From assembly GCF_016495405.1 (NCBI RefSeq), contig NZ_CP044522.1:930001-994000 (forward strand): 64,000 bases of DNA. The letters run 5' to 3'. Positions 18,076-22,704 of the stretch are shown here, in pieces (position 1 is the stretch's first letter; each line of letters starts with the position of its first letter). The notes under the pieces were generated by a model, which worked only from the letters and a program-made list of their open reading frames with translations, was not told where the DNA came from and searched no databases. Made by a program: the position numbers and the translations under genes. This DNA is from Cobetia sp. cqz5-12 (GTDB lineage Bacteria > Pseudomonadota > Gammaproteobacteria > Pseudomonadales > Halomonadaceae).

Positions 18076-18606
18076 TCAGTCCTTCTGGTAGGCAGCGGCT
18101 GCCTTCTCGATCGCGGCACGGGCTGCATCAGCACCGTCCCAGGAATCGATCTTGACCCACTTGCCTTTCTCGAGATCCTTGTAGTTCTCGAAGAAGTGCG
18201 CGATCTGCTGACGCAGCAGTTCCGGCAGATCAGTGACTTCCTGGACGTCGTCGTACAGGGAGGTCAGCTTCTGATGCGGGACGCAGACCAGCTTGGCGTC
18301 TTCACCGGCTTCGTCGCTCATGTTGAGCACACCGACCGGGCGCGCACGGATGACGCTGCCCGGTGCGACCGGATACGGGGTCACGACCAGCGCGTCGAGG
18401 GCATCGCCATCGTCGGCCAGGGTGTTCGGGATGTAGCCGTAGTTGGCCGGGTAGAACATCGGGGTGGCCATGAAACGATCCACCATGAGCGCATCGATGT
18501 CCTTGTCGATCTCGTACTTGATCGGCGCGTGATTGGCCGGAATCTCGATCGCTACGTAGACGTCGTTCGGCAATTCCTTGCCAGCGGGGATCTTGTCGAA
18601 ACTCAT
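18076..18606 (-). CDS. ppa: Inorganic pyrophosphatase, family I
   Basis: A 176-residue soluble hexameric pyrophosphatase, the same size as the E. coli enzyme. The active-site Asp cluster is visible in [10 protein letters not shown], with KYEIDKD upstream and the C-terminal [10 protein letters not shown]. The ATG at 18606 is preceded by AAGGAC and matches the family start; the frame remains open a little further upstream without conservation. It is divergent from the kinase/phosphatase fusion and 3 kb from pfp, an enzyme that consumes the same PPi pool. Confidence 0.95.
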
Positions 18607-18872
18607 TGTCGAGTCCTTGGGTTTGCGGGTTGAAGGCCTGCGGGTCAAAATTCCGCTGAATTATACGAACTGGCAGACCGTTTTGCCATTATGCCACGCT
18701 CGATCGCCTTGCGTTGCACCAACGAGTGGTGGCACTGCAGGCTGACTCGGGTAACACTTGGGGCCGCCCAGCGTGGCGCAACGGCGATTGCGCGTTTCAG
18801 CGTCGGGCTGGGGCTGCGTCACCACCGCATGCATGAAACGTAACGGCAGGATCGAGACGCAAGGAGACCGCC

Positions 18873-20600
18873 TTGGCGGATGCAGAGCTTTCACTCAGTT
18901 ACGGTCAGGCCTTCGTGGCTCCCGACCGCAAGCGTCATCGCAGCTCGATGTCGCTGGAGATACCGCTGGAGCGCGGCCCGCTGGCGGCCAAGGGCGGCTG
19001 TGCGCTGATCGCCGACACCACCAGCAAGAACGCGATCGCCAAGCAGGCCGGTGACCTTGCCGTGCGTGGCTTTCTGGCCGATTACTTCGCCACGCCCGAC
19101 AACTGGAGCGTCAAGTATTCCGCGACCCGCGTGCTGCGGGCGCTGAACAGCTGGTGTTACAGCCAGAGCCGCTTCGTGCGGGGCGGCAGTTACGTGACCT
19201 CGATTTCCGCGGTCGTCTTCCGGGGCCAGTCGGCGCATCTGTTCCATGCCGGCGACACGGTGGTTTTCCGTCTGCGTGGCGGCGAGTTCGAGCAGATCTC
19301 GCGCGATCATGTCACCGATCTCGGCGGCTATCGTTATCCGTCGCGGGCACTGGGCATGGATGTCAGCCTCGACATCGACTACATCGAGCTGCCGCTCAAG
19401 CAAGGCGATATCTTCCTGTTCACGACCCAGGCGGTGCGCGGCACCTTGCTGCCTTCCGATTTCGTCTCACTGATTCGCGATGACGTCTCGGATCTCGACG
19501 CCGCCAGTGAGCGCCTGGCGCATGCCGCGGCGGACCGCGCCGATGAGCGCGGCTACACGGCCGACCAGTTCTGCTTCCAGCTGGTGCGCATCGATCGCCT
19601 GGCGACTGCCTCTGACGATACGCCGGGGCGCGTCTATGGCGACCTGCCGGTACCGCGTGAACTGGAGCCGGGCGACCGTATCGATGGCCTGGAAGTGATG
19701 GAAGTCATGTCGCGCAGCGCGCGGGTGCGCGTCTACAAGGTGCGTGACCTCAAGAGCCGCCGCGTAATGGTGATGAAGGCGCCCAGCCCGGAGCTGTCGC
19801 TCAAGAATGCCTATCTCGAGCACTTCCTGCTCCAGCAGTGGGTGGTGGACCGTGTCAGCTCGCCCTTCGTGGTCAAGGTGGTGGAGCCGTCACGCCCGCG
19901 TGATCATCTCTACTACCTGCTCGAACATCTGGAGGCGCAGACACTGACCGAATGGGCGCGCATGCACCCGCAGGCCAATCTCGAGCAGCGTCTCGACATC
20001 GCGCGCCAGCTTGGCAAGGCCGTGCATGCTCTCAATCGTCGTGAGGTGCTGCACCAGCTGATTCACCCCGACAACGTGATGATCGACCGGCATGGCAAGG
20101 TGGTGCTGGTCGATTTCGGCGCCTGCCATCTGCGTGAAGGGGATGGCCATGAGAGCGCCGGTCCGCTGGCACGACAGGTCGGCCTCACCGAGCACAGCGC
20201 GCCGGAATATGCCCTTGGCGCCGATGTCAGTCGTCGCAGCGATCAATACGGCCTGGCCTCGGTGATCTACTGGCTGCTGACCGGCATGCAGCCCTATGCC
20301 CAGTCGATGGAGCAGCTGCGCACCCATACCGACCTCGAACTGCTGGAATATCAGCCAGCCCGCATGCGCAATCCCCAGGTGCCACAGATACTGGATGACG
20401 CCCTCAGGCGCGCCCTGGACCCGCAGCGCACCCTGCGCTATCGCCGCCTGTCTGAGCTGCTCTACGCGCTGCGCCTGCCGCAGCAGGACCCCGGCAAGGC
20501 GCTGACGCCCTCGGAGGCGATCCGTGAACCGGCCAATTTCTGGCAGGGCGTCGCCGGCATCCTGCTGTTGCTGCTGGTGCTGTCCTGGCTACTGAAATGA
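18873..20600 (+). CDS. PP2C-phosphatase/Ser-Thr kinase fusion, probable pseudoenzyme, tail-anchored
   Basis: A 575-residue protein. Residues about 25-242 are a PP2C-type phosphatase domain, about 265-535 a Hanks-type kinase domain, and the last 20 residues (GILLLLLVLSWLLK) a tail anchor. Both domains are eroded. PP2C keeps Asp48, GD127-128 and Asp231, but the metal-binding TDG motif reads TTQA at 184-187 (Asp to Gln). The kinase keeps Lys302, Asn401 and DFG (Asp414), but the HRD/HQD catalytic Asp is Leu396 (motif HQL-IHPDN). Start is TTG at 18873 with AAGGAG at 18861-18866. It overlaps the next gene by 4 bp (ATGA). Proteins of this architecture are usually annotated as bifunctional kinase/phosphatase; here a scaffold or sensor role seems more likely. 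Confidence 0.85.
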   Translation: MADAELSLSYGQAFVAPDRKRHRSSMSLEIPLERGPLAAKGGCALIADTTSKNAIAKQAGDLAVRGFLADYFATPDNWSVKYSATRVLRALNSWCYSQSRFVRGGSYVTSISAVVFRGQSAHLFHAGDTVVFRLRGGEFEQISRDHVTDLGGYRYPSRALGMDVSLDIDYIELPLKQGDIFLFTTQAVRGTLLPSDFVSLIRDDVSDLDAASERLAHAAADRADERGYTADQFCFQLVRIDRLATASDDTPGRVYGDLPVPRELEPGDRIDGLEVMEVMSRSARVRVYKVRDLKSRRVMVMKAPSPELSLKNAYLEHFLLQQWVVDRVSSPFVVKVVEPSRPRDHLYYLLEHLEAQTLTEWARMHPQANLEQRLDIARQLGKAVHALNRREVLHQLIHPDNVMIDRHGKVVLVDFGACHLREGDGHESAGPLARQVGLTEHSAPEYALGADVSRRSDQYGLASVIYWLLTGMQPYAQSMEQLRTHTDLELLEYQPARMRNPQVPQILDDALRRALDPQRTLRYRRLSELLYALRLPQQDPGKALTPSEAIREPANFWQGVAGILLLLLVLSWLLK

Positions 20601-21304
20601 GCGCAGAGACTGATGGGGTTCAAGGCCATGGTGGAGGGAAGAGGGGGATGGGGCAGACCGCGATCGTGATCGGGGCGACCGGCGTGGTGGGGCGCGAGGT
20701 GGTGGCTGAGCTCAGCGCCTGTGAGGCCATCGCCCGAGTCGTCACGCTGACGCGCCGGCCGGCGCCGAGCGATTGCGGCAAGGTCGAGAACCATGTGGTC
20801 GACTTCGCGCGATTGGAAGACTGGGCCCACTGTTTCCAGGCGGACCTGCTGTTCTCGTGCCTGGGCACCACACTCAAGCAGGCGGGGTCGCTCGAGGCCC
20901 AGCGGCGTGTCGACATCGATCATCAACTGAGTGCCGCCCGGCTGGCGGCCGCCCAGGGAGTGACGCACTACCTGCTGGTTTCCTCCAGCGGCGCCAATCA
21001 TGCGAGCCGCAATGGCTATCTCAGGATGAAGGGCGAACTGGAAGTGGCCATCAAGGCGCTGCCCTTTGCGCGTATCAGTGTCTTCCAGCCGTCATTGCTG
21101 GTGGGGGAGCGCCGCGAGTTCCGCCTGGGTGAGACGCTGGCGCGCTATCTGTTGCCGGTGCTCACCCGCTCGCCGGGCTTGCAGCGCTATCGACCGATCC
21201 GTGGCGCTCAGGTAGCGGCGCGTATGGTCGAAGTCAGTCAGCGTCAGCAGCAGGCGCATGTGGTTTACCGGCTGGAGGAGGTATTCCCCTCTACATCTGC
21301 ATGA
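20597..21304 (+). CDS. NAD(P)-binding atypical SDR, HTATIP2/TIP30-like
   Basis: A 235-residue Rossmann protein. The nucleotide-binding GATGVVGREVV lies at about 26-36 and is preceded by a poorly conserved 18-residue tail; an internal ATG at 20648 (MGQTAIVIGATG) could be the true start. LFSCLGTTLKQAGS and YLLVSSSGANHASRNGYLRMKGELE, with the YLxxKGE variant of YxxxK, place it in the HTATIP2-like subgroup; the reaction is unknown. The 4-bp ATGA overlap at 20597-20600 couples it to the kinase/phosphatase fusion if the upstream ATG is used. Confidence 0.8.
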   Translation: MSAETDGVQGHGGGKRGMGQTAIVIGATGVVGREVVAELSACEAIARVVTLTRRPAPSDCGKVENHVVDFARLEDWAHCFQADLLFSCLGTTLKQAGSLEAQRRVDIDHQLSAARLAAAQGVTHYLLVSSSGANHASRNGYLRMKGELEVAIKALPFARISVFQPSLLVGERREFRLGETLARYLLPVLTRSPGLQRYRPIRGAQVAARMVEVSQRQQQAHVVYRLEEVFPSTSA

Positions 21305-21441: not shown

Positions 21442-22704
21442 TCAGATCGTGAACGGTGTCAGCTTCTTCTCGACCTTGGCCAGCGTGAGCTTGGCGACTG
21501 CCGGCAGACCATTGACGAACGGCGGGAAGTCCTCGCCCTGGATCAGCGGTGACAGGTACTGGCGGCAGGCGTCAGTGATGTAGAAGCCGTCTTCGGTGAT
21601 GAACTCCAGCGGCATGAACTTCTCATGGTTGGCGATCTGCTCCAGCGGTGCCTCGATGATGTCCCAGGCGTAGTCAGCGCCATCGCCGAGGCGACGGATC
21701 GCCGGCATCACGGCATTCTTGCCGGCCAGCGCCATCTCGACGGCGGCACGGCCAGTGGCATAGGCCTGCTCGACGTCGGTCTTCGAGGCGATGTGGCGTG
21801 CCGCGCGCTGCAGGTAATCGGCCACCGCCCAGTGATACTTGTAGCCCAGGTCCTGCTTGACCATGCCGGCCAGTGTCGGCGCGACGCCGCCCAGCTGACG
21901 GTGGCCGAAGGCGTCGGTATTGCCGGCATCGGCCAGGAAGGTGCCATCTTCGTACCGCGCCCCTTCGGAGACCACCACCACGCAGTAGCCGTGTTCCTTG
22001 ACGCAGGCATCGACGCGCGCCATGAATTCCTTGCGGTGGAAGGCGACTTCCGGGAAGACGACGATGTGCGGCGGCTGGGTGGCATCTTCACCGGCCAGGG
22101 CGCCGGCGGCGGCGATCCAGCCCGCGTGACGCCCCATGACTTCCAGGATGAACACCTTGGTGGAGGTGGCGCACATGGAGGCGATGTCGAGACCGGCTTC
22201 ACGGGTGGAGGTGGCGATGTACTTGGCCACGCTGCCAAAGCCCGGCGAGTTGTCGGTGATCGGCAGGTCGTTGTCCACGGTCTTCGGCACGTGGATGGCC
22301 TGGATCGGGTAGCCCATGGTCTCGGCCAGCTGAGAGACCTTCAGGCAGGTATCGGCGCTGTCGCCGCCACCGTTGTAGAAGAAGTAACGGATATCGTGGG
22401 CCTTGAACACCTCGATCAGACGCTCGTACTGGGTACGGTGGTCCTCGATGCTCTTGAGCTTGTAGCGGCAGGAGCCGAAGGCACCGCCCGGCGTGTGGCG
22501 CAGCGCGGCGATGTTCTCGTCGCTTTCCTGGCTGACGTCGATCAGGTCTTCGGTCAGGGCACCGATGATGCCGTTATGACCGGCATACAGCTTGCCGATC
22601 TGGTCGCCGTTTTCACGAGCGGCTTCGATGACGCCACAGGCACTGGCGTTGATGACGGCGGTAACGCCACCGGACTGGGCGTAGAAGGCATTGTGCTGGG
22701 GCAT
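21442..22704 (-). CDS. pfp: PPi-dependent 6-phosphofructokinase
   Basis: A 420-residue enzyme phosphorylating fructose 6-phosphate with pyrophosphate, reversibly. It matches the methylotroph-type Pfp: N-terminal NAFYAQSGGVTAVINASA, GAFGSCRYKLK, YNGGGDSADT and PKTVDNDLP. The GGGDS motif puts Asp where ATP-dependent enzymes have the second Gly of GGDG, the known determinant of PPi use. MGRHAGW and the TDVEQAY segment complete the active site. I see no ATP-type pfkA in the window. It uses the PPi that Ppa (encoded 3 kb away) would otherwise hydrolyse. Confidence 0.92.
   Translation of the reverse strand: MPQHNAFYAQSGGVTAVINASACGVIEAARENGDQIGKLYAGHNGIIGALTEDLIDVSQESDENIAALRHTPGGAFGSCRYKLKSIEDHRTQYERLIEVFKAHDIRYFFYNGGGDSADTCLKVSQLAETMGYPIQAIHVPKTVDNDLPITDNSPGFGSVAKYIATSTREAGLDIASMCATSTKVFILEVMGRHAGWIAAAGALAGEDATQPPHIVVFPEVAFHRKEFMARVDACVKEHGYCVVVVSEGARYEDGTFLADAGNTDAFGHRQLGGVAPTLAGMVKQDLGYKYHWAVADYLQRAARHIASKTDVEQAYATGRAAVEMALAGKNAVMPAIRRLGDGADYAWDIIEAPLEQIANHEKFMPLEFITEDGFYITDACRQYLSPLIQGEDFPPFVNGLPAVAKLTLAKVEKKLTPFTI

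Follow-up and report, generated by a model that had tools for sequence, protein, structure and literature searches.

A PP2C-kinase fusion protein of Cobetia, which belongs by taxonomic placement to the Halomonadaceae, lacks catalytic residues in both of its halves, and the same losses recur in the orthologues that we aligned. We propose that the Halomonadaceae protein, an orthologue of an intact PP2C-kinase fusion, is probably a non-catalytic, membrane-bound scaffold or allosteric regulator that binds a nucleotide and a protein. We also lean, a little less firmly, toward the view that the whole family turned a nitrate-linked kinase/phosphatase, in place, into a doubly inactive membrane scaffold that joined the core gene set and no longer depends on nitrate, writer and eraser of a phosphorylation system having died together in one protein whose body was retained for a new role in regulation. 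To judge by the residues at the active centers, kinase and phosphatase activity both appear to have been lost, and the protein very likely performs a function that depends on neither reaction.

The window, that is, the whole stretch of 64,000 nucleotides of Cobetia DNA that was analyzed, contains the gene with the following domains.

18873..20600, + strand: double pseudoenzyme gene of Cobetia (pseudo-PP2C, pseudokinase and a hydrophobic helix at the C-terminus), encoding 575 aa from a TTG start that follows AAGGAG
18888..19598, + strand: pseudo-PP2C domain, residues 6-242 (fold match to PppA, PstP and tPphA; conservation)
19671..20492, + strand: pseudokinase domain, residues 267-540 (PF00069, 79 bits; PknB fold, Z 24.4)
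20541..20594, + strand: hydrophobic helix at the C-terminus, residues 557-574, presumably a membrane anchor (hydrophobic tail in aligned members; model helix 553-574)

The open reading frame and the residue numbering of the original prediction (Lys302, Leu396, Asn401, DFG at 414-416 and Gln186-Ala187) were all correct, and the C-terminal tail that it had taken for an anchor was recovered as a hydrophobic helix both in aligned members and in the model, its role in anchoring being presumed. Pfam returned kinase-type families only, with no match for the PP2C half of the 575-aa protein, and the PP2C match in NCBIfam was weak. An AlphaFold2 model computed with 44 family sequences as input had a mean pLDDT of 80.5, with values below 50 at residues 416-427, in the activation-segment loop. 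In a fold search, which is evidence on fold and not on function, the PP2C half of the model resembled the PP2C phosphatases PppA (6jkv, Z 26.4 over 221 residues) and PstP (1txo, Z 25.3), and the kinase half resembled PknB (5u94, over 252 residues). A 100% identical protein is present in a C. amphilecti genome. A promoter and terminator scan stayed near the means for shuffled sequence, with two terminator-like matches and a single promoter-like match that lies on the opposite strand.

We compared 117 orthologue rows, which include the query and a locus identical to it over 400 residues (L031), with 85 other relatives that were drawn from the higher-scoring portion of an order-level sample, were chosen blind to the motifs and include 8 sequences from Halomonadaceae. 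Alignments shorter than 420 residues and rows identical over the first 400 residues were left out of the counts; orthologues beyond the aligned rows were assigned by score, and the residue-level reading applies to the aligned rows. All 14 checked motif residues were kept in 85/85 other relatives, whereas D24, D186, E321 and D396 were all absent in 117/117 orthologue rows. The alignment that the original prediction had proposed as a check thus shows the loss to be lineage-wide, with variation in the exact residues that stand at its HQL and TTQ motifs. In the PP2C half, the motif residues were distributed as follows.

18942..18944, + strand: Ser24, at the site of the first metal-binding Asp of PP2C (motif NED/NQD); S in 116/117 orthologues versus D in 85/85 relatives
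19014..19019, + strand: Asp48 kept, the Gly after it gone (ADG to ADT, Thr49); D48 in 117/117, position 49 S in 84, T in 29 and A in 4 versus G in 85/85
19254..19262, + strand: Asp128 kept (GD motif), GDxR Arg replaced by Val130; D128 in 117/117, R130 in 2/117 versus 85/85
19428..19433, + strand: Gln186-Ala187, replacing the TDG Asp-Gly; position 186 Q in 99, R in 15 and P in 3 versus D in 85/85
19563..19568, + strand: Asp231-Gln232, replacing DN; position 231 D in 78, E in 26 and others in 13, position 232 N in 4/117; DN in 85/85 relatives

The register is anchored by the ADG, GDSR, TDG and DN motifs of an intact relative, which align to those of the phosphatase tPphA. The Cobetia protein lacks the full PP2C metal-binding set (NED/NQD, ADG, TDG and DN), and the predicted loss of the TDG Asp and Gly holds throughout the orthologues as far as the Asp is concerned. 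Since Asp48, Asp128 and, in the Cobetia protein, Asp231 remain, some metal binding by the pseudo-PP2C half is possible. The corresponding positions of the kinase half are listed below.

19776..19778, + strand: Lys302, the beta-3 ATP lysine, kept; K in 116/117
19833..19835, + strand: Gln321, replacing the alpha-C Glu; Q in 117/117 versus E in 85/85 relatives
20058..20060, + strand: Leu396, replacing the HRD catalytic Asp; Q in 47, R in 45, L in 7, G in 5, A in 5, N in 3, H in 2 and K, I and S in 1 each, never D, versus D in 85/85
20064..20066, + strand: His398, replacing the catalytic-loop Lys; K in 0/117 and R in 7/117, relatives K in 61, R in 23 and N in 1
20073..20075, + strand: Asn401, metal-binding, kept; N in 113/117
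20112..20120, + strand: Asp414-Phe-Gly416, DFG in Cobetia and DFS in most orthologues; D in 116/117, position 416 S in 90/117

The Cobetia protein reads HQL where relatives read HQD, so that the catalytic Asp is gone while Lys302, Asn401 and DFG are kept, as had been predicted. The prediction understated the losses, which also include those marked by Ser24, Thr49, Val130, Gln232, Gln321 and His398. Gln321 aligns to the PknB Glu that lies 19 residues past the ATP Lys of PknB, and neither D396 nor E321 occurs in any orthologue row (0/117). Nor was position 396 ever Asp in an earlier alignment of the query with 110 loci (111 rows), where it was R in 56, Q in 40, L in 10, A in 2, and otherwise G, K or I; deep-branching genera show the same loss there. 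D400 was rejected as a replacement catalytic Asp because intact relatives have it too (KPDN). The residue losses are fixed in the orthologue rows examined and are thus not a matter of chance, and the replacements Ser24 and Gln321 are themselves fixed. With the trait columns masked, a 63-row unrooted tree placed its 14 orthologue rows in one group with support of 100/100. Pseudokinases are defined, in a section of a review, as lacking at least one of the beta-3 Lys, the HRD Asp and the DFG Asp (PMC12599244). By its residues, the protein is a bacterial pseudokinase with a Hanks fold as well as a PP2C pseudophosphatase with a PP2C fold.

Lys302, Asn401 and Asp414 are jointly present in 112/117 orthologue rows, which suggests nucleotide binding without phosphotransfer. 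The same three residues could instead serve another chemistry gained by the kinase half, for example, nucleotide transfer of the SelO kind, and part of the same review describes SelO and SidJ as pseudokinases with new chemistries (PMC12599244). We consider such a gain unlikely, as the alpha-C position is Gln in every row and ten different residues occur at position 396, which is not the pattern of a newly gained catalytic residue. Moreover, Asn401 is gone in 4/117 rows (L143, L171, L173 and L174), one of which, L174, has also lost Lys302, and these genes stay open; L171, L173 and L174 cluster at 100/99 in the 63-row tree. Nucleotide binding is therefore not required in all members, or is not the whole function, and the reading that we prefer, a non-catalytic scaffold or regulator, has to accommodate this.

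We then compared the surroundings of the gene in the best 80 of 103 Halomonadaceae loci found, plus 13 further ones. The neighbors in the window are the following.

18076..18648, - strand: inorganic pyrophosphatase (PPase, ppa) gene, divergent neighbor (PF00719; in 80/80 loci, 127-443 bp away)
20597..21304, + strand: SDR-type gene with a 4-nt ATGA overlap with the pseudoenzyme gene, local to some Cobetia and outside the conserved unit
21442..22704, - strand: PPi-dependent phosphofructokinase (PFP) gene, convergent neighbor (NF010675; in 74/80 loci, less than 1 kb away in 71)

PFP was not found in 6/80 loci, 3 of which had less than 1.3 kb of flank, and Mpl and UbiX often lie beyond it. Such a constant pairing would fit a regulator of pyrophosphate metabolism that acts through its neighbors PPase and PFP. 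This alternative is distinctly unlikely, because some deep genera (L169, L171, L172 and L174) have one of the two genes, PFP or PPase, far away or not at all and because some intact, nitrate-linked relatives are also flanked by PPase or PFP, so that the gene order may be merely inherited and the link is weak. Beyond this general gene order, no partner gene was tied to the pseudoenzyme in the loci compared. The SDR was ruled out as a partner: the translational coupling to it, which had been offered as an argument for a role, is real as an overlap, but the SDR matched in only 4/11 Cobetia loci, which amount to 3/6 genomes (duplicates judged by equal coordinates), and in 1/80 Halomonadaceae loci. 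It was not found in three Cobetia genomes whose pseudoenzyme is 94-97% identical.

The intact relatives, which we take to be PA1782-like, are annotated as bifunctional protein-serine/threonine kinase/phosphatase and are 32-39% identical over most of their length. They have the same layout of PP2C, kinase and C-terminal hydrophobic helix that the Cobetia protein combines in one chain, and part of the family occupies the same locus. PA1782 is named among the P. aeruginosa Ser/Thr kinases in a passage of an earlier paper (PMC8560001). An intact relative (KIN) stands in the order PPase-NirD-NirB-NarK-KIN-Porin-Mpl-UbiX at three loci (L189, L220 and L239), DUF2333-PPase-NirD-NirB-KIN at one (L232) and NarK-KIN-PFP-Mpl at two (L225 and L243). 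Another locus (L266, contig 37 of G290) reads AroQ-DsbD-DUF2333-PPase-KIN; its 17.6 kb contain no nitrate marker and the motifs of its relative are intact, so that a copy without nitrate neighbors can still be intact. Because some intact relatives in other families occupy this locus, the gene has probably come down by inheritance at this site; as a counterpoint, the shared locus is seen in no more than a minority of intact relatives, PPase, DUF2333, PFP, Mpl or UbiX being neighbors at 11/32 NED-type versus 1/32 NQD-type loci (Fisher p 0.003). That count omits L181-L189, whose proteins were entered under other locus ids and of which 5/9 (L181, L182, L183, L188 and L189) have a neighbor of these types. 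Gene order thus favors placing the Halomonadaceae clade nearer to the NED than to the NQD intact group, a position that the unrooted tree itself does not settle.

Genes for nitrate assimilation (nirB, narK or nasA) adjoin the relatives at 26/32 NED-type and 12/32 NQD-type loci, whereas nitrate markers were found at 0/93 Halomonadaceae pseudoenzyme loci (80 named and 13 others). The new element here is this combination of nitrate-linked intact relatives at the same place and a Halomonadaceae locus free of nitrate genes, where the enzyme is dead by sequence. Cobetia has nirB and nasA elsewhere in its genome, and eight rows represent intact-looking second copies in some Halomonadaceae, so the protein might still act in trans, as a regulator of nitrate assimilation or of a paralogue with intact catalysis. 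We regard either as very unlikely. With strict thresholds and 3 candidates scored per genome, 58 of the 254 good genomes lacked a NirB match and 59 a NasA match (196 and 195, respectively, had one), and at least 15 good genomes have the pseudoenzyme with neither NirB nor NasA detected (among them G005, G014, G027, G028, G032, G037, G038, G054, G059, G060, G064, G080, G085, G092 and G094). Such genomes make a nitrate function unlikely as the reason for retention. As for a paralogue, 202/272 genomes with a match show a single one (counted by eye, with up to 4 candidates scored per genome), and no second family member was found in the Cobetia genome. That genome does encode a second Hanks-type kinase of 629 aa (L214, 1360-3249, near 2.05 Mb of G000:C1) with HGDIKPSN and IDWG motifs, which lies, as read by eye, directly 3' of an apparent 2-oxo acid dehydrogenase E2 gene.

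Acidic residues are newly conserved at eleven positions of the kinase half. Two of them, at positions 422 (91% of rows) and 424 (87%), follow closely after DFG, in the low-confidence loop of the model. Lying in the activation segment, they might conceivably take over the part of the base and, with the ATP-site residues kept, would allow a weak protein-kinase activity. We hold this to be highly improbable, given that the catalytic Asp and the alpha-C Glu are gone in every orthologue and that the catalytic-loop Lys is never Lys.

The gene is retained across the family. A match was found in 272/275 Halomonadaceae genomes and 24/24 genera, in 254/254 good genomes at an E value of 6e-161 or better, and the three genomes without a match are 71-88% complete. 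Whole-gene dN/dS was 0.021-0.030 in four Cobetia pairs (PP2C half, 0.010-0.015; kinase half, 0.024-0.043); for comparison, the neighboring PFP gene gave 0.035-0.056 and DsbD 0.12-0.29. Over ten pairs, the pseudoenzyme gave 0.012-0.085 in nine and 0.218 in the tenth; these are NG86 estimates, and some of the ratios are rough because several dS values exceed 1. Near-invariant columns (entropy below 0.1 bit) numbered 52/237 in the PP2C half and 29/274 in the kinase half. The original prediction that selection, and not decay, has shaped the protein for a non-catalytic role is supported by the presence in all good genomes, the low dN/dS, the fixed replacement residues and the intact folds. A decaying relic, to which the many lost catalytic residues and one orthologue whose frame appears to be broken by a frameshift around codon 435 (L146/L162, in the single-contig genome G030) might point, can be dismissed on the strong purifying selection, the match in every good genome and the lack of internal stops among the matches listed from Halomonadaceae genomes.

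The history and mechanism that we propose for the non-catalytic scaffold or regulator run as follows. The ancestor would have been an intact, membrane-tethered PP2C-kinase fusion, often beside assimilatory nitrate genes in other gammaproteobacterial families. Along the stem of the Halomonadaceae, the gene would have kept its place between ppa and mpl-ubiX while both active centers were lost; nirB and narK probably left the site, or else never lay there. The present protein would sit at the inner membrane, facing the cytoplasm, where its pseudokinase half may bind ATP or a similar nucleotide through Lys302, Asn401 and Asp414 as a conformational switch. The pseudo-PP2C half, the better candidate for partner binding because it is the more conserved, would hold a partner protein, and the whole would serve at the membrane as a scaffold or allosteric regulator that responds to a ligand.

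Several known systems resemble the Halomonadaceae protein in part. PP2C pseudophosphatases of the TAB1 type have a PP2C fold without catalysis and bind a partner, as proposed for the pseudo-PP2C half, but they are eukaryotic and not fused to a pseudokinase. EssB/YukC of T7SSb is a membrane-bound bacterial pseudokinase that serves as a scaffold, although the relevant section of the review describes no PP2C half for it and the Halomonadaceae protein shows no sign of such a secretion role (PMC12599244). GLW pseudokinases, as outlined there, are likewise proteobacterial, with HRD replaced and a membrane segment after the kinase domain (PMC12599244). They have GLW for HRD and have lost the beta-3 Lys, features absent from the Halomonadaceae protein, which keeps K302, reads HQ followed by Q, R, L, G, A or others, and carries a fused dead PP2C. 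One Leptospira CP1 member in Table 1 of the review matches the Cobetia kinase pattern, with Lys, Asn and DFS kept and the HRD Asp lost; CP1 kinases are described as lacking membrane segments and CP1 pseudokinases as having a COG3899 domain (PMC12599244), whereas the Cobetia protein combines a PP2C half with a membrane helix and shows no linked COG3899 ATPase domain among its Pfam matches. Neither "PP2C" nor "Halomonas" occurs in the main text of that review (PMC12599244), and nothing on the Halomonadaceae clade appeared among the titles found in a literature search.

A known function is rare among bacterial pseudokinases. In the present system, intact relatives, some of which share the locus, can be viewed next to a single clade that has lost both catalytic halves. 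Because it occurs in culturable bacteria and the Cobetia protein is the sole family member found in its genome, a purely non-catalytic role is open to a direct genetic test. The label "bifunctional kinase/phosphatase" that the relatives carry would mislead if transferred to the Halomonadaceae clade.
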